Position numbers and translations under genes: made by a program | In this document: positions 35,111 through 49,820 of the stretch, one piece after another | Layout: each line of letters opens with the position of its first letter | How positions within the stretch are numbered: the stretch's first letter is position 1 | From: a virus | Virus record (IMG/VR): IMGVR_UViG_3300026484_000298 | Span: 1 to 50,207 of that record | Length of the DNA stretch: 50,207 nucleotides | Reading direction: 5' to 3' (one strand) | Notes under the pieces: generated by a model | Database searches by the model: none | What the model was told of the DNA's origin: nothing | Seen by the model: the letters and a program-made list of their open reading frames with translations, nothing else

Positions 35111-36874
35111 ATGGAAGATAAATTAATACGATCGTTAAATATCACAATTGAAAAAATATTCAATAAATGTATTTTATCAGAAGAATTGTATAATCGATAT
35201 TGTAAAACTGGGGTATTATTTATATTAAATAATACCCTTGTATCTAAAGAAATTAAAGATTTTAAAATTAATAATAAAAAGGATTTTATTATTAATTTAA
35301 ATGAAGTTCTTGAATTATTTTCGCTATTATCAAAAACAGTTAAAGAAATAGATACAAAAGTTAATACAAATATACATGAATTAATAAATAGTGAGATTAA
35401 GAAGTTAAGTATTTATTTAATAAGTATCAAATATTCTTGTACAGAAGTAGAAGCAATAAATAGATTAGAATATAAAAAACATTACGAAGAATTAATTAAG
35501 AATGATAAGGAACTTGCCGATTTTGAAAAAGAAATGGAAACATATTTCTCAAATGAAATTAAATCTAAGAATTTAAATCAATTTAAATTAAAGAAAGTTA
35601 AAGAAAGTTATTTACATGATATCGAAAATATTAATTATAATAGTTCTTTTCATGTAACTTTTCAAATAAATAAAAATTGTAATTTTAAATGTACTTATTG
35701 TTATGAAGGTTTGGATAAACTTACCGAAATTATTACAGATAATGATATACCAAAAATAGTATCAGGTTTGAAAAAATTACAAGAAAACCTAAAAAAAGAT
35801 AAATTGCCACATAAATTGTCGTTTAGTATATTAGGTGGTGAACCAACATTAGTTCCAACAAAAAGAACACAAATGCTAACTAAGCTAATGATGGAAAAAT
35901 TAGAAATACATGATGTAATTTTAATTACTAATAATTATTCTGCTCAAAAAACTATAGACTTTTTTCATCCTGATTTTCCAAAAGAATTAATCCGTTATCA
36001 GGTATCGTATGATGGTGGGAAAATCCAAGATGATTATAGAAAGGACGCTAATAAAAAAGGATCTAAGAATTTATTAACAGATGAAATTTATAAATTATTA
36101 AATTTAATGGATAAATCTTCTAAATTATCAATGAAGGCCACTTTACCGATGGAAGCTTTTTCTTCAGTGAAAGATGCAATAAATGATTATTTACAATTCG
36201 AAGATGTAGTAAATGACCAAAATGGTCATGGATCCAATTTTTCGTATTACAGTACATTTGATACTTCATCTTTATTGATGATAAATCTTAGAAAAAATTT
36301 TGCTAATAACCAAGAAAGTATTAATAGTTTTCTATTAGAAGTTGAAAACCTTTTAAAATATTTGGTTAAATTTGAAATGGATAGATTAATATTAGGTAAA
36401 TCTTTATTTACTAGATTTTTTAAAGAACTTAGATATAATGCGAATGATACTTCATGTAGCGCAGGTCAGAGTTTATTTGGATTAGATCAATTAGGGAATG
36501 CTAGATTCTGTCATAGAACAGAATATGATAACTATAGTAATTATCCTAAAGAACAAGGTTCTAAATTATTTTATGGAAATATAAATAATACTAATTTTTA
36601 TAAAATATTTAATGAATCTAAAGAATTAATTACTAATAAAAAACAAGAAGTTTTAACCGATCCGAATAATTTATGTAGAAGCTGTAAAACATTGACTTGT
36701 GTTAAATGCCCAATGGCCTTTACACCTCCTGATAGAATACTGGATACTAGTGTGTCCGGAGATTTATTTACTGATATGTATTCACATGGGTTAACGTTAA
36801 CGTGTATTGTAAATAATACTATAAGCAAATATTTATATATATTTGATAAAATAATTAATAAAAAGGTTTTATAA
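35111..36874 (+). CDS. radical SAM/SPASM-type enzyme, 587 aa
   Basis: CNFKCTYC (C190, C194, C197) is the 4Fe-4S binding motif and GGEP (242-245) is the SAM-binding strand. C-terminal Cys-rich segments, CSAGQSLFGLDQLGNARFCHR then CRSCKTLTCVKCPM, have the layout of a SPASM auxiliary-cluster domain, typical of enzymes that modify ribosomally made peptides. The first ~185 residues are a helical extension without a recognised fold. Its stop overlaps the ATG of the 15-Cys gene (TAATG), so the two are coupled. It starts the accessory operon. The enzyme probably acts on that protein, but other substrates are possible. Confidence 0.88.
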   Translation: MEDKLIRSLNITIEKIFNKCILSEELYNRYCKTGVLFILNNTLVSKEIKDFKINNKKDFIINLNEVLELFSLLSKTVKEIDTKVNTNIHELINSEIKKLSIYLISIKYSCTEVEAINRLEYKKHYEELIKNDKELADFEKEMETYFSNEIKSKNLNQFKLKKVKESYLHDIENINYNSSFHVTFQINKNCNFKCTYCYEGLDKLTEIITDNDIPKIVSGLKKLQENLKKDKLPHKLSFSILGGEPTLVPTKRTQMLTKLMMEKLEIHDVILITNNYSAQKTIDFFHPDFPKELIRYQVSYDGGKIQDDYRKDANKKGSKNLLTDEIYKLLNLMDKSSKLSMKATLPMEAFSSVKDAINDYLQFEDVVNDQNGHGSNFSYYSTFDTSSLLMINLRKNFANNQESINSFLLEVENLLKYLVKFEMDRLILGKSLFTRFFKELRYNANDTSCSAGQSLFGLDQLGNARFCHRTEYDNYSNYPKEQGSKLFYGNINNTNFYKIFNESKELITNKKQEVLTDPNNLCRSCKTLTCVKCPMAFTPPDRILDTSVSGDLFTDMYSHGLTLTCIVNNTISKYLYIFDKIINKKVL

Positions 36875-37485
36875 TGGGATGTGGTGTAAAAATTAACCAC
36901 CATCATATGGGTGGTTGTGATTGTAATATAGATACTCCTGGTCCATTAATATGTACAATGGACTCCCAGAATATTGAATGTAAATTTAATTCGGTTGAGT
37001 TTCCATCTGGTTCTCCAGTTAATGGTCCAATGTCAGGGAATGATGATAAAGCAACAACGTGCCCTGATTATAAAGAGATGTGTCCTGGTAATATGTTTGG
37101 TACTTTAGATTCTTATTTTGCTGATGCTACCGCTGGTGAAATTATAGACGATACTGATGTATCTTCTTTCTATCGTGGGGCTACTGCAGTAGCTCGCGAC
37201 AGAAAATTAACATTACCAAGTACCTCAAGTAACGTTTCTAATGGTAATTTAGTAAATAACGGAGATTATAATATGCTTAGTAATTGGGCAAATACCGTAA
37301 TAAGTACTTTAGGTCGTACCGAAAGCGAGACGACTGGAACGGAAATAGATGCAAGCGGTTGGATATCAATAAGAGATAAATTAAAGTATGTTGCTGAAAT
37401 GTGTAATGATAATTTACATTGTACTTGTGAAAATGTATGTTCTTGTAATCAGGTATGTACTTGTAATTGTGATAGTCATTATTAA
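36874..37485 (+). CDS. Cys-rich protein with CxC-repeat tail, candidate radical SAM substrate
   Basis: 203 residues with 15 Cys. The N-terminus MGCGVKINHHHMGGCDCN is His/Cys-rich, and the last 27 residues hold eight Cys as CTCENVCSCNQVCTCNC followed by DSHY. The middle (about 70-165) is Ser/Thr/Asn/Gly-rich without Cys. I do not recognise the family, though CxC tails remind me of some phage virion proteins. Being coupled to a SPASM-type radical SAM gene makes it a candidate for thioether or other cross-linking, or a metal-binding fibre part. It comes right after the fibre module. Confidence 0.8.
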   Translation: MGCGVKINHHHMGGCDCNIDTPGPLICTMDSQNIECKFNSVEFPSGSPVNGPMSGNDDKATTCPDYKEMCPGNMFGTLDSYFADATAGEIIDDTDVSSFYRGATAVARDRKLTLPSTSSNVSNGNLVNNGDYNMLSNWANTVISTLGRTESETTGTEIDASGWISIRDKLKYVAEMCNDNLHCTCENVCSCNQVCTCNCDSHY

Positions 37486-41085: not shown

Positions 41086-41933
41086 TGAATAAAGAAATAT
41101 TATTAACATTCTGTCCAAGCACCATCGAAACCAATAGAATTTGTGGTCATACCTTTGAGGTAATGGATTACTATTTATTTTTAAAAGATTCTGGATTTAC
41201 AAACGTTAAAATACTTATTCAGGAAAAAATATCAAGAGAAGAATTATTTAAAGCGTATTCAGACAAGTACATATTACCAGATAACTATAAAAAAGATATT
41301 ATTTTTAAAAGAAATTTAAAATATTTAATAAGTAAAGGTACTATTATATTTACCGGTGGAATTGATCATAATTACAATGTTAAGTTAATAAGTCAAAAAT
41401 TATTATTATTTAGATGCAATAAAGAAATAGATTATTCTAATTTTAAACACAAAAATGTTTATTTATTACAAGATAATAGATTTTATGATAAACCAAAAAA
41501 TATAAAAATTATTAATTATATTAAAAAAATATATTTTACTAGATATAAAAAAATTAATAAATCTGATAATAAAACTTTAGTTTATATAAATTCTAATATT
41601 AGAAAAACTTCTTTGGTTTTCAATGATGATTATTTGGTAGTTTCTGGAACGGATATAAAAGATAAAACTTATTTGAAAGCTCCAGTGGCGAATTTATTTA
41701 GCAAATTTAATAAATATTTATACACTGAAACTACTAGAAAATTTGATTGTAGTTCTAGATTGGTACCGGAATGTTATTTTTATAATAAAGAAATATTATT
41801 TAATTTTAATAAAGAAGAATATTTTAAAATTGATAAAGGTTTAAAATATAGATACGAAGATACTGTAAATAATTTTAGTAATTTAGATTTAAAAAATGGA
41901 GATACAATTTGCAATATAATAACGAAGAAATAA
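41085..41933 (+). CDS. possible GT-B glycosyltransferase-like protein, 282 aa
   Basis: Near 225 it has RKFDCSSRLVPECYFYNKEI, and the N-terminus has GHTFEVMDYYLFLKDSGF; both correspond to the 39609 protein. GTIIFTGGIDHNYN suggests a nucleotide-binding turn. These are consistent with, but do not prove, a glycosyltransferase of GT-B type. It overlaps the radical SAM gene upstream by one base and the next radical SAM gene by 25. Confidence 0.45.
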   Translation: MNKEILLTFCPSTIETNRICGHTFEVMDYYLFLKDSGFTNVKILIQEKISREELFKAYSDKYILPDNYKKDIIFKRNLKYLISKGTIIFTGGIDHNYNVKLISQKLLLFRCNKEIDYSNFKHKNVYLLQDNRFYDKPKNIKIINYIKKIYFTRYKKINKSDNKTLVYINSNIRKTSLVFNDDYLVVSGTDIKDKTYLKAPVANLFSKFNKYLYTETTRKFDCSSRLVPECYFYNKEILFNFNKEEYFKIDKGLKYRYEDTVNNFSNLDLKNGDTICNIITKK

Positions 41934-42808
41934 TTAAAGTGTGTGGAGATAAACAATTACCTTTATTTCGAATACATATAAATAATGAGTGTAATTTAAA
42001 TTGTGAATATTGTTCAGCTAAAGAAATTATGAAAAATAAAGGAAAACCTTTAAATTTATTAAAAGTATTAAAAACAATTAAAGAAATTAATAAACGAATG
42101 AAATTTAATATAGTATTAACAGGTGGTGAACCAACTAAAAATTTAAATACTTTAAATTACTTAACTAAAGAATTATTAAAATACGATAATTTAAATAATA
42201 TCGAAGTTATTACTAATGGTTTTAAATTACTAACTTATTTAGGATTATTTAAAAATAACTCTGACTTTATTGAAAAAGTTAATATTAGTTATTCATACCA
42301 TCCTTCTCAAATTAATTTAAATAATTATTTAAATATTTTTAAGAAAAGTTTTATATTAATAAATAATTTAAATATAAAAAGTGATATATTACTATATCCT
42401 AAATATTTTGATAATATAAAAAAGTTAATAATAGAAATGAAAAATTATAAATTTAAATATGGTTTTATATTTATAAATAATTATTTCGATAATGAACCGA
42501 TAGAATATTCCGAAGCTGATTATAGATTTATAAATAATTTAGAAGAAGAAGATAATTATTTAAAATGTAATTATTATTCTAAAAATAACAAATATGTTTT
42601 AAGTATGTCTGAGATTCAAAGAAATGAATTGAGAAATTTTGCCGGATTTAAATGTTCAATAAATAAATTTAGTATTATCTCAAATGGTAGTATAATTAGA
42701 GATTGTGTCCATTTACCAACTAGTATTAATAATTTAAATGATTCTATTTTATGTCCTGGTGATTGTGTATGTGATACTGATTTATATTACTTAAAAGAAA
42801 AAATATGA
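41909..42808 (+). CDS. radical SAM protein, 299 aa
   Basis: CNLNCEYC (C28, C32, C35) and VLTGGEPTKN near 70. C-terminal Cys (FKCSINKF, IRDCVHL, ILCPGDCVCD) fits a SPASM-like auxiliary cluster. The start is TTG with GGAGA upstream, inside the end of the preceding gene. The stop region overlaps the next gene (ATGA). Confidence 0.85.
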   Translation: MQYNNEEIIKVCGDKQLPLFRIHINNECNLNCEYCSAKEIMKNKGKPLNLLKVLKTIKEINKRMKFNIVLTGGEPTKNLNTLNYLTKELLKYDNLNNIEVITNGFKLLTYLGLFKNNSDFIEKVNISYSYHPSQINLNNYLNIFKKSFILINNLNIKSDILLYPKYFDNIKKLIIEMKNYKFKYGFIFINNYFDNEPIEYSEADYRFINNLEEEDNYLKCNYYSKNNKYVLSMSEIQRNELRNFAGFKCSINKFSIISNGSIIRDCVHLPTSINNLNDSILCPGDCVCDTDLYYLKEKI

Positions 42809-43737
42809 TTTTACCAAAGAAATTTATACCTAAAATAATAGTGATCGATTTAAATGATCCATGTTATTTAAATTGTTCTTTTTGTCCAAAAACTAAAGAT
42901 ACTGTATTTACTAAAAATAGTTTTTTAAAAATAAAAATCCTTTTGGATTATTTTATTTCTTTTGGTATTGAATCTTTTGAAATAACTCCAACTATTGGAG
43001 ATTCGATAAACAATCCTTATTTAATTCAAATTCTAGATTATTTATTGCATTATAATAAAAAAGTATTTATGTTTACATCATTAGTAGGTAATATAAAAGA
43101 TTTGAAAACTATTATAAATCGTCCTAATTTTTATTTAGTTATAAGTACGTACGGTCTAACTAAAAATAGTTTTAAAAAACATACTAATGTTAACAAGTAT
43201 TCTAATTTTATAATGAATTTATTATTTGTATTAAATAACTTTAAACCAAAAGATAATAATTATATAATTATTAGAAACCGCTTTGATAATAAAAAAGATT
43301 CTATACTTTTTAAATCATTAATAAATAAATACCAGTCCGATAATATTTTTTTCGAATTATATCATCCTGATATTACTTCAACTAAAGATAGTTCAACTAA
43401 AGATAGTTCTGTAAAGTTTTGTTGTAATTTTTTAATAAATTTTGGATGTGATATCAATGGTGATATTAGGTTCTGTAATTATGCTTTTGGTGCTCCAATA
43501 ATCGGTAATATTTTTAAAGATAATTTAAATGATATTCTTAACAATTATTTTCAAAAGTATTTGAATAATTCCTTTTGCAGTAGTTGTATATTATTTGATG
43601 AAGTGGATTTAGAAGGAAAGGAGAATAACTATAAAAACAATTATATACTTAGTTATTCTTTTAAATCTTTTTTAAATAATAAAAAGATAAACATAGGTTT
43701 AGTAAATATTAAAAAGGAAGACTATGCAATTAACTAA
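42805..43737 (+). CDS. radical SAM protein with TPTxGD in place of GGE, 310 aa
   Basis: CYLNCSFC (C20, C24, C27) is the cluster motif. At the position of GGE the sequence reads FEITPTIGDSINNP, with Gly-Asp instead, as in its likely paralogue (IDLTPTKGDILNIP) in the gene at 43724-45394. C-terminal CCNFLINFGCDINGDIRFCNYAFG and CSSC fit a SPASM domain. TSTKDSSTKDSS near 193 is a duplicated 15-base unit. Overlaps on both sides. Confidence 0.85.
   Translation: MILPKKFIPKIIVIDLNDPCYLNCSFCPKTKDTVFTKNSFLKIKILLDYFISFGIESFEITPTIGDSINNPYLIQILDYLLHYNKKVFMFTSLVGNIKDLKTIINRPNFYLVISTYGLTKNSFKKHTNVNKYSNFIMNLLFVLNNFKPKDNNYIIIRNRFDNKKDSILFKSLINKYQSDNIFFELYHPDITSTKDSSTKDSSVKFCCNFLINFGCDINGDIRFCNYAFGAPIIGNIFKDNLNDILNNYFQKYLNNSFCSSCILFDEVDLEGKENNYKNNYILSYSFKSFLNNKKINIGLVNIKKEDYAIN
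43378..43407 (+). repeat. two copies of TCAACTAAAGATAGT inside a radical SAM gene
   Basis: An exact 15-bp duplication encoding STKDS in frame. Its core (AACTAAAGATAGT) recurs at 39453-39466 and 49340-49352. Confidence 0.9.
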
Positions 43738-45394
43738 AGATAATTGTTCTTTATTTTTCGTTATTGAAAATAAAGAACAATTAATAATGGAAACTAAAAA
43801 AAGTATATATCATATAATTGAATCAGATTCTTGGATTAAAGATATTACGATTTATTTAGTTACTCCAACTAGTATTAAATTAAATAATAATATTAAACAA
43901 GATTTTTTATCTATTTATAATAATATATTTTTTATTGAAGAGGAATGTGTAAAATATTCGGATCATGTTTTTTTTAATATGATCTATGGTTGTTCTTTAG
44001 CGGAAAGAAAAATAAATACAGATTACTTAATATACTTGGATTGTGATATGTATTTAATAAATGATTTTCCAACTTATTTTAAAGGTGAGTTAGTTCTAGA
44101 ATCTGAGGGTTATTATAATCAGGAATCCGATAATTGGCTTAAAACTAAAAATAAATGGTTAAAAATATTAAAACAAGATATTACAAATTTTACGTATATT
44201 AATACAGAGTTTATGATAACTAAAAAAGATAATAATATTTTTCAACAATGGGAGAATACTTTTAATAACCTTTATCCTGATTTAAAAAAATTTGAAAGAA
44301 CATATAAAAAAATATATAAAGATATTGGTTTTGATATATCATGTATGGAAGAAACAAGTTTTGAATTATTAATTAATGATTTAGAACTCGATATTTTATT
44401 TTTACCGGATGTTGTTGCTAGATTGGCGGACCCATCTGCAATACCAGATAATACAAATAATATTTTATTTTTAAGCCAACACATTAAAAAAACAAATGAT
44501 ATTATTTTTGATTATTCTGATAATTCTTTTAAAGCGGATACAGTAACTATGGAATTAATTTATTCGTGTGAATTTGACTGTTTCTTTTGCGAGAAACCAA
44601 ATTTAGATAAACCAATAATATTAGAATTAAATAAGTTTAAATATTATTTGGATAAATTAACTTCGCAAGGTATCACTTGTATAGATTTAACTCCTACTAA
44701 AGGAGATATATTAAATATTCCAAATATAACGGAATACTTAAAAATAGTGGAAGAAGATGAAAAGGTTACCAAATATTATTTTTATACTTCATTAGCTATA
44801 AAAGATAAATTAGATCATAATTTAATTAATTTTATAAATAAGTCTAAGAAATTACATGTATATTTTTCTTGTTATTTTGATAATGATTTCAATTCTTTTA
44901 ATAAAATAGTGCGCAAAGATAAAGAAGTTTATATAAAAAATAAAAAAGATTCTCTTAATTTTATAAAGGATATATGTAAATATAAAATTACTTTTATAGA
45001 TAGAGTTAATAAATATTCATTAAAATATTTATATAAAAATAATCAAGTAGCTAAATTAGCCAAACTAAAAGGTATTGAAGTTATTACAGAAGAAGATGAT
45101 TTAAAAGAAAAACGCGATAAATTTTTAAGGGATACTGGCTTTTGTGAGCAATTTTTATGTTGTAGTACTTTAAAAATGAATGGTGAATTTGTTTATTGTA
45201 ATTATGGTAAATCGTATTATGATGGAGTGGTTGAAAATATAGAAAATTTTACAAATAAAAATTTATTAACATATGAATTGATAAATTCAGATTTATGTAG
45301 AAAGTGTATGTATAAAATGGAATCTGGTATAAAAGAACGTATATGGAATCCAGAACTTTATATAAAAAATTATAAAAAAGAAACTAGCATGTAA
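43724..45394 (+). CDS. glycosyltransferase–radical SAM fusion protein, 556 aa
   Basis: The N-terminal ~265 residues have a GT-A fold signature with a DxD metal site in YLIYLDCDMYL (D106, D108) and acidic/aromatic residues typical of galactosyl- or glycosyltransferases. Residues 275-556 are a radical SAM domain: SCEFDCFFC (C282, C286, C289), then IDLTPTKGDILNIP, and C-terminal CEQFLCCSTL...VYCNYG and CRKC as a SPASM-like cluster. A single chain with a sugar transferase and a radical SAM enzyme suggests that the two act in turn on one substrate. The join has no stop or frameshift. Confidence 0.8.
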   Translation: MQLTKDNCSLFFVIENKEQLIMETKKSIYHIIESDSWIKDITIYLVTPTSIKLNNNIKQDFLSIYNNIFFIEEECVKYSDHVFFNMIYGCSLAERKINTDYLIYLDCDMYLINDFPTYFKGELVLESEGYYNQESDNWLKTKNKWLKILKQDITNFTYINTEFMITKKDNNIFQQWENTFNNLYPDLKKFERTYKKIYKDIGFDISCMEETSFELLINDLELDILFLPDVVARLADPSAIPDNTNNILFLSQHIKKTNDIIFDYSDNSFKADTVTMELIYSCEFDCFFCEKPNLDKPIILELNKFKYYLDKLTSQGITCIDLTPTKGDILNIPNITEYLKIVEEDEKVTKYYFYTSLAIKDKLDHNLINFINKSKKLHVYFSCYFDNDFNSFNKIVRKDKEVYIKNKKDSLNFIKDICKYKITFIDRVNKYSLKYLYKNNQVAKLAKLKGIEVITEEDDLKEKRDKFLRDTGFCEQFLCCSTLKMNGEFVYCNYGKSYYDGVVENIENFTNKNLLTYELINSDLCRKCMYKMESGIKERIWNPELYIKNYKKETSM

Positions 45395-48288: not shown

Positions 48289-49198
48289 TCATAAATTAGA
48301 AAGATTATATATCCATTGGGATATTACAACCAAATGTAATTATAATTGTAATTATTGTTATGCCAAAAAGGATTATTCTAAAACAGATTCTTGGCAAAAA
48401 GAAACTCAAGATAAAATTATACGAACAACTATTGCTAGTATAACTAAGAGTACTCTGCCAGTTTTTTTAGGATTACTTGGAGGAGAACCAACAACTTCTA
48501 AATATTATTTTGAGATTTTAGAATCTCTTAAAACTAAATTATTACCAAAACATAAAGATAATAGATTATATATTACTACTAATTTATCTAAAGATATGAA
48601 ATACTGGGAAGATCATCCGAAGTTAGAAAAAACTTTTATACTTGCTAGTTTTCATCCAGAATATCATAATGAAAAAAGCACTAAAGAATTTATAGATAAA
48701 TTAAAATATCTGAGACAGTATTTTAAAGTAAAAGTAAATATAATGTTAGATCCAAAATTCGATGAGGTAACTTCGTTGTGGGTTAATTACTTAGAGAATA
48801 AAGAATTAAAAGATATAATAATACATCCTCATATTATTTATCCTGATGGTAGTCCTCATACAGATATTAAAAGAATATATAAAGATAGTATTACAAAATA
48901 CGAAAAATTATATAGTTATATGCAAAACGAATACTTTTATCAAAATAAAGAATTAACCGATTTAGATGTTTTTAAAAATAATTTAAATACTTTTAAAGGA
49001 TGGGATTGTTATCAAAATAATTATGAAATTTCTTATGATGGTTATGTTTCAAGTACATGTTTTCCAAATAGAATTAATTTAGTAAAAGATATTTTATATT
49101 TTAGAAAAATTCATAAGATTGTTCCAAGAAAATGTCCACATGATTTTTGTAGCTGTGATGGTTTATTAAAATGCAAAAAGGTAAGAAATGCTTCTTAG
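48263..49198 (+). CDS. radical SAM protein, 311 aa
   Basis: CNYNCNYC near residue 25 and LGLLGGEPTTS near 73. The C-terminal GWDCYQNNYEISYDGYVSSTCFPN and RKCPHDFCSCDGLLKC resemble a SPASM domain with an unusual CPHDFCSC end. It starts within the end of the DegT-like gene and overlaps the GT2 gene by 11 bases. Confidence 0.87.
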   Translation: MEKVFQGIDHKLERLYIHWDITTKCNYNCNYCYAKKDYSKTDSWQKETQDKIIRTTIASITKSTLPVFLGLLGGEPTTSKYYFEILESLKTKLLPKHKDNRLYITTNLSKDMKYWEDHPKLEKTFILASFHPEYHNEKSTKEFIDKLKYLRQYFKVKVNIMLDPKFDEVTSLWVNYLENKELKDIIIHPHIIYPDGSPHTDIKRIYKDSITKYEKLYSYMQNEYFYQNKELTDLDVFKNNLNTFKGWDCYQNNYEISYDGYVSSTCFPNRINLVKDILYFRKIHKIVPRKCPHDFCSCDGLLKCKKVRNAS

Positions 49199-49820
49199 TA
49201 TTCTTATCCTTACTCATGATAGACCATTTCAATTCCGGGAATGTTTAAATAGTGTTTTAAAAGCAGATATTGATATTAATTTTGAAATTTTAATTAATTG
49301 TGATGATGATTCTATTTCTCAGATAACTATTGATAGTTTAACTAAAGATAGTTATCTCGAAAATAAAATAAAATTATTTAATTATTCTCCAGATAATTAT
49401 GGAAAAATATATAAGTATTTAATTAATAAATCAAAGGGTAAATATTTATATTTTTTAGAAGATGATGATTTGCTAATAACTAACTTTAGTTATCTCCAAA
49501 ATAGTTCTTATGATTATTTATTCTGTAAAAGAGTTCCTGACTTTTCAAGAGAACCAGGAAAAGTAATTAATTACTTAAAGTATCTAAAATCATTTAAAGA
49601 TAAAAAACATACAGAGTTATTTAATATTTTTAAAACGCCAGAAGAATTCATTTATTTTCAATTAGGTGATTTAATTATTAAAAAAGATACTCTTCATAAC
49701 ATCCCTCTTAGTAATAATAAATATAATGATTATTACTTATTTAAAAATAATATTGGAAGTATCCAGTACTTAAATAATATTTTATATAAACAAAGGAGTT
49801 CCCATTATAACGTCTCATGA
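49188..49820 (+). CDS. GT2-type glycosyltransferase, 210 aa
   Basis: Starts LLSILILTHDRPFQFRECLNS, the GT2 N-terminal nucleotide-binding strand, then INCDDDS near 38 and YLYFLEDDDLL near 90 for the metal site. At 210 residues it is shorter than usual GT2 enzymes. It contains a hairpin (49321-49357) and a 19-base string that is identical to one in the intergenic 190-bp arrays. The acceptor is unknown. Overlaps the radical SAM gene and, with an ATT start, the next gene. Confidence 0.75.
   Translation: MLLSILILTHDRPFQFRECLNSVLKADIDINFEILINCDDDSISQITIDSLTKDSYLENKIKLFNYSPDNYGKIYKYLINKSKGKYLYFLEDDDLLITNFSYLQNSSYDYLFCKRVPDFSREPGKVINYLKYLKSFKDKKHTELFNIFKTPEEFIYFQLGDLIIKKDTLHNIPLSNNKYNDYYLFKNNIGSIQYLNNILYKQRSSHYNVS
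49321..49357. repeat. imperfect palindrome inside the GT2 gene
   Basis: AGATAACTAT pairs with ATAGTTATCT, closing a shorter imperfect inner stem. Belongs to the same family as the intergenic hairpins. Confidence 0.75.
49476..49506 (+). repeat. intergenic repeat fragment inside the GT2 gene
   Basis: AGTTATCTCCAAAATAGTT at 49488-49506 is identical to 3393-3411 and 3583-3601 in the left 190-bp array, and is preceded by ATAACTAACTTTAGTTAT. A 19-base identity is unlikely by chance. Confidence 0.85.

Follow-up and report, generated by a model that had tools for sequence, protein, structure and literature searches.

A phage protein that joins a glycosyltransferase half to a radical SAM half, encoded in a gene cassette beside tail genes

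Phages with around ten radical SAM (rSAM) genes have been known since 2010, the function of these genes being unexplained. The rSAM clusters of the Campylobacter phages CP220 and CPt10 are described as exchangeable, with no known role (Timms et al. 2010, PMC2853527), and in the pelagimyophages a variable host-recognition region by the tail genes is described as containing glycosyltransferases and cassettes of rSAM genes (PMC7029224). We analyzed a window of 50,207 nucleotides (the whole stretch of viral DNA, IMG/VR record IMGVR_UViG_3300026484_000298), in which a cassette of rSAM enzymes, glycosyltransferases and a shortened DegT protein is situated just downstream of tail genes. One ORF of this cassette joins a predicted GT-A type glycosyltransferase (GT half) to an rSAM enzyme (rSAM half); its features and those of the surrounding genes are collected in Table 1. 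Elsewhere in the window, at 133-2785, two consecutive genes match the phage RNA polymerase beta-subunit families phrog_2986 and phrog_3015. Such genes are found in phiKZ-like jumbo phages.

Table 1. Features of the fusion gene and its cassette, with the basis for each assignment (residue numbers refer to the fusion protein)
Feature	Position	Strand	Basis
rSAM/SPASM peptide-maturase-like protein, cassette head	35111..36874	+	SPASM Cys pattern; weak NCBIfam matches (PapB, nif11, CcpM maturases), all below cut-off
Cys-rich protein, C-terminal CxCx3CxCx3CxCxC, presumed virion protein	36874..37485	+	L053 homologue carries Pfam S74 tail domain
phrog_24441-family protein, fused to rSAM in L009	41085..41933	+	no Pfam or PDB match
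rSAM gene overlapping phrog_24441 gene	41909..42808	+	PF04055, E 6e-11
Stand-alone rSAM paralogue of the fusion's second half	42805..43737	+	25.7% identity, E 1e-5
GT-A + rSAM fusion protein, 556 aa	43724..45394	+	single ORF; same fusion in L009:10001-11686
Glycosyltransferase half, residues ~1-257, predicted GT-A fold	43724..44494	+	AF2 mean pLDDT 77, pTM 0.81; LgtC Z 14.1; homologous to CP220 gp089
DxD motif D106-C107-D108, presumed metal/nucleotide-sugar site	44039..44047	+	invariant in 9 aligned GT-A relatives
E209-E210 acidic pair, candidate catalytic residue (putative role)	44348..44353	+	invariant in 9 relatives
H253, candidate third metal ligand as in GT8/GT6-type enzymes (putative role)	44480..44482	+	invariant in 8 closest GT-A relatives
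Linker, residues 258-271	44495..44536	+	identity between both fusions lower there (54%)
rSAM half, residues ~272-556, twitch type	44537..45391	+	homologous to CP220 gp087; family profile matches CteB, SkfB
CxxxCxxC [4Fe-4S]/SAM motif, C282xxxC286xxC289	44567..44590	+	invariant in 7 relatives
Auxiliary-cluster cysteines C474, C492, C525, C528	45143..45307	+	sequence pattern; partly invariant in relatives
Shortened DegT/DnrJ-type aminotransferase-like protein, 204 aa	47674..48288	+	PF01041 in two pieces, profile positions ~103-163 absent
rSAM gene overlapping GT2-like gene; pair fused in L067	48263..49198	+	
GT2-family glycosyltransferase	49188..49820	+	PF00535, E 3e-4; closest relatives above cut-off

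The fusion protein and its two halves

The ORF runs from an ATG to a stop codon and encodes an uninterrupted protein, without internal stop. The preliminary description had read in it a glycosyltransferase DxD site (D106, D108) followed, in the second half, by CxxxCxxC, in an order for which no established family was known; both motifs are present, and no established family with a glycosyltransferase-then-rSAM order was found in Pfam, PHROGs, NCBIfam or the open-access papers searched, nor was a significant match to the full 556-aa protein found in the three databases. The DxD motif alone is no evidence, because it turns up in 79% of sequences obtained by shuffling the first half. CxxxCxxC occurred in 1.2% of shuffles. 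Both halves were taken as real because of their homology, not because of motif occurrence. A scan of viral contigs recovered a second copy of the same two-domain fusion in IMGVR_UViG_3300026521_000559 (locus L009), with 67% identity over query residues 1-555, and because of this recurrence in a second phage contig the ORF is not considered an assembly error. The comparison of the two copies indicates purifying selection on both halves (NG86 dN/dS ~0.21 and ~0.28 for the GT and rSAM halves, respectively; dS is close to saturation). At the sequence level the fusion ORF is confirmed as a true two-domain phage protein. The full-length AF2 model, made with a two-sequence alignment, had a pLDDT of 44.5, and a promoter scan gave a result no better than shuffles. 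Scans of bacterial genome contigs, which were of limited sensitivity, yielded no copy of the GT half and, with the rSAM half, a single distant rSAM, standing alone, in a Bacteroidia MAG.

For the GT half an AF2 model was built on an alignment of nine proteins from the window, L009, L014 (CP220), L016 and L018. A first half without a glycosyltransferase fold would have contradicted the preliminary description; this outcome did not occur, as the best structural matches to the model, among those listed, were glycosyltransferases: LgtC (GT8; VIA-align over 204 residues, rmsd 3.3), LARGE1, UGGT (GT24) and the blood-group enzymes GTA/GTB (GT6). The last 25 residues, H253 among them, were modelled with low confidence, and H253 is not kept in the relative L018:7321-8268. 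The stand-alone CP220 protein gp088 stops five residues past the equivalent His, and for that reason the fusion seems to contain the entire GT domain. With the stand-alone CP220 protein gp089 the GT half shares 28% identity over 184 aa (pairwise E 1e-9; E 0.09 within the whole phage collection), and no Pfam glycosyltransferase family, the GT8/GT6 sequence model included, was matched at E ≤ 1, for the GT half itself none at E ≤ 10. The model supports a GT-A fold for this half, close to the retaining GT8/GT6/GT24 group, and the half is predicted to transfer a sugar from a nucleotide sugar.

The rSAM half is 34.5% identical to CP220 gp087 (E 3e-8), and a profile of seven relatives matches the solved enzymes CteB (5wgg, E 6.8e-6) and SkfB (E 3.8e-4); PF04055 was matched at E 4.5e-4, under the family cut-off. 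The usual GGEP-type motif is replaced by TPTKGD, which is kept as TPxxGD/E in the relatives. Beyond the core the half has cysteines at 474, 479, 480, 492, 525 and 528, and of the full SPASM motif, Cx9-15Gx4C...Cx2Cx5Cx3C, only C474-x12-G-x4-C492 and C525xxC528 are present. The Cys pattern is that expected of a one-cluster "twitch" domain, not of a full SPASM domain. Of the earlier reading of this half, an rSAM core with SPASM-like cysteines, the core is upheld by the CteB and SkfB matches and the SPASM part gives way to a twitch. The comparisons confirm the second half as an rSAM enzyme with a putative single auxiliary-cluster ("twitch") Cys set, predicted to cleave SAM and to form a 5'-deoxyadenosyl radical.

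Homologues and the surrounding cassette

Relatives encode the two halves in separate genes close to each other, which the preliminary description had proposed to check. In the phage contigs L016 (3300024324_000425) and L018 (3300042868_011386) the GT-A homologue is directly followed by the rSAM homologue, in the order of the fusion, with overlaps of 13 nt and 14 nt, respectively; in the Campylobacter phages CP220 and F379 the order is reversed and another GT-A gene separates the two. A tree of the rSAM halves was without resolution and the stand-alone rSAM genes are homologues, one-to-one orthology not being proven. Other joinings were recovered as well. A protein of 486 aa (P0002, L067:16993-18453, - strand) combines a GT2 domain (PF00535, 4e-7) with an rSAM domain (PF04055, 1.9e-8), both above the curated Pfam cut-offs; it is an independent fusion in another phage contig, and its counterparts in the window are two overlapping genes. 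In L009:7271-9061 a phrog_24441 protein is joined to an rSAM, the window counterparts again being separate. The phrog_24441 family reads as GT-B-like by eye and is not claimed here as a glycosyltransferase; neither a fold nor a profile identity was found for it, and because Pfam and PDB profiles give it no GT-B support, only two kinds of fusion contain a certain glycosyltransferase. The simplest explanation of the fusion is that two genes with a joint task, next to each other and overlapping, became one.

Viral contigs were then baited with phrog_24441, which gave 19 loci, all of which (19/19) have rSAM genes nearby. With duplicate loci dropped, 28 of the 33 GT-A, GT2 or phrog_24441 genes were fused to an rSAM gene or lay at most 60 nt from one, rSAM genes making up 100 of the 425 ORFs in the same loci (23.5%); this count describes a biased sample, the loci having been picked via a cassette gene, and the clustering of rSAM genes raises the expectation. 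The pairing of GT-A and rSAM genes is not universal, because in L080 and L081 the GT-A gene abuts amidinotransferase and DegT genes instead of an rSAM. A coupling of glycosyltransferases and rSAM enzymes is nevertheless well supported as a genomic pattern, because fusions and pairings recur.

The loci L062, L066, L080 and L081 each combine genes for an amidinotransferase, a GT-A protein and a shortened DegT protein. The amidinotransferase of F379 is annotated as glycine/inosamine-phosphate type; none was seen in the cassette of the window, which ends at the contig edge, or in the L009 fragment. L016 and L018 contain genes assigned by reading as an epimerase and an LmbE-like deacetylase. In the shortened DegT protein an internal segment and the C-terminal part are missing; it is 45-60% identical across four phages, and NtdA and scyllo-inosose aminotransferases are among its PDB matches. 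The earlier suggestion that a sugar or a glycoprotein is the target of the surrounding enzymes is plausible: the other glycosyltransferases, the DegT-like protein, the epimerase and the amidinotransferase, nearby or in relatives, speak for it.

The Cys-rich protein at the head of the cassette ends in CTCENVCSCNQVCTCNCDSHY and has homologues at the equivalent position in L009, L053 and L059, of which that in L053 runs on into an S74 chaperone domain, above the Pfam cut-off. Cys-rich proteins with an S74-like continuation, recognized by eye, were also seen in L067, L072 and L074, and a Cys-rich protein of similar kind with a Gly-rich, fibre-like body in L064. The combination of maturase-like protein and Cys-rich protein looks like an RiPP-type modification of a phage tail protein. 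The maturase gene as query found no phage record; the shorter maturase homologue of L053 found relatives in Campylobacter and Erwinia phages.

Several further observations concern this gene pair. The pairing of a maturase-like gene with a Cys-rich protein is also present in L009, L053, L059, L061 and L067, and in L061 (1-14288 of a 272,602-base viral contig) the maturase, the Cys-rich protein, a phrog_24441 gene, rSAM genes and an amidinotransferase occur in one run. CP220 gp140 (L055 1-1537) contains six annotated 21-nt repeats that code for CDCNYCT, and the maturase homologue gp136 (L055 3743-4912) is encoded a few genes away. In the jumbo Erwinia phage phiEaH2 (gp083-gp086, L056 2937-6299) two rSAM genes are located near a 68-aa protein that ends in CGGSCSWTCSGGCSHGAGNR and is possibly a small precursor peptide.

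Possible function of the fusion and its cassette

The reading that we prefer, with a probability of about 0.45, is that the fusion is a two-step enzyme with coupled halves, which takes part in the synthesis of a modified sugar or in its attachment to a virion protein. The GT-A half, as a retaining GT8/GT6-like enzyme, would glycosylate an acceptor with a nucleotide sugar as donor, using a metal held at D106/D108 and probably also at H253, and the twitch-type rSAM half would make a 5'-deoxyadenosyl radical and modify the same acceptor, or the sugar attached to it, in a step before or after the transfer. The enzymes of the cassette in this phage or its relatives (rSAMs, glycosyltransferases, shortened DegT protein, epimerase, deacetylase and amidinotransferase) might together build an unusual amino- or guanidino-type glycan. 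Our preferred acceptor is a tail protein of the virion, and the most likely one is the Cys-rich, tail-fibre-like protein at the cassette head, to which the fusion is tied by the shared gene neighbourhood alone. It is the activity, the coupling of both steps, the sugar identity and the acceptor that we infer here. A wider version, which we consider possible but rather doubtful, is that diverse phages share a pathway that radically cross-links and glycosylates a Cys-rich part of the tail fibre, in which the maturase would act on the (CxC)n segment and the paired or fused glycosyltransferase-rSAM enzymes would add a modified amino/guanidino sugar; if true, the product would be an RiPP-like, sugar-decorated virion protein.

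The same gene content could be read in other ways. The cassette, fusion included, might remodel a host surface glycan (LPS or capsule) during infection, e.g. to block rival phages, and the pelagimyophage host-recognition clusters, with their mixture of glycosyltransferases and rSAM cassettes for which O-chain modification is proposed (PMC7029224), point in this direction, as do the epimerase and deacetylase genes of L016 and L018, which resemble surface-sugar genes. However, among the cassette ORFs examined no flippase, polymerase or membrane-anchored transferase was recognized, numerous rSAM enzymes would be unusual for O-antigen remodelling, and at the start of the cassette stand a maturase and a virion-like, Cys-rich protein, all of which make host glycan remodelling unlikely. 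The amidinotransferase annotation in F379 and the PDB matches of the DegT protein mentioned above would agree with a cassette that makes a small diffusible compound, aminocyclitol- or aminoglycoside-like, and BtrN is a twitch-type rSAM that acts on an aminocyclitol. We nevertheless find such a product quite unlikely, given that no cyclitol synthase was recognized, that the window and L009 fragments show no amidinotransferase, that a secreted molecule would be of little gain to a lytic phage and that the DegT protein, truncated as it is, may not be an active aminotransferase.

Phage glycosyltransferases can also modify DNA, and hypermodification of the bases of the phage DNA, to which the glycosyltransferase would attach sugars, would agree with the QueD-like and GTP cyclohydrolase genes that are present elsewhere in Campylobacter phages; we judge it very improbable, because no nucleotide- or DNA-modifying gene was recognized in the cassette, which sits beside tail genes, and because the transferases with the best fold match act on sugars or proteins. 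The joining itself could be incidental, a stop codon having been lost between overlapping neighbours that are not functionally coupled, or it could be an artefact of assembly. A small change would indeed suffice, since the separate genes overlap by just 13-14 nt in the relatives, but the fused form is kept in two contigs that differ by 33%, both halves being under purifying selection, independent fusions to rSAM occur in other cassette proteins, and an artefact would not recur, so that an incidental or artefactual origin is decidedly unlikely.

Comparison with known systems

The fusion physically links one of the many phage rSAM enzymes to a glycosyltransferase, and its recurrence with other cassette proteins turns the coupling of rSAM enzymes and glycosyltransferases into a testable rule. 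A single 556-aa protein, together with split homologues in a culturable phage, provides a handle on the substrate of the pathway, which may represent a new kind of virion protein modification.

The GT half shares with GT8 (LgtC) and GT6 (blood-group GTA/GTB) enzymes the predicted GT-A fold, the DxD, an acidic pair and a C-terminal His, and differs from them by a sequence identity of ~10%, the lack of a Pfam glycosyltransferase family match and the fused rSAM. Similarly, the rSAM half has the CxxxCxxC core and a C-terminal auxiliary Cys pattern in common with the twitch/SPASM rSAMs of the CteB, SkfB and BtrN type, but only one auxiliary-cluster Cys set, and TPxxGD/E in place of the GGEP-type motif. 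In the pelagimyophage clusters no glycosyltransferase-rSAM fusion is described in the available part of that report (PMC7029224). The CP220/CPt10 cluster contains homologues of both halves, the rSAM gp087 and the GT-A gp089, in one cluster with other rSAM genes and an amidinotransferase; the window phage, unlike CP220/CPt10, has RNA polymerase beta-subunit-like genes. In CP220 the two activities are encoded by separate genes, in reverse order and with another GT-A gene between them, whereas the window phage fuses them in one protein.
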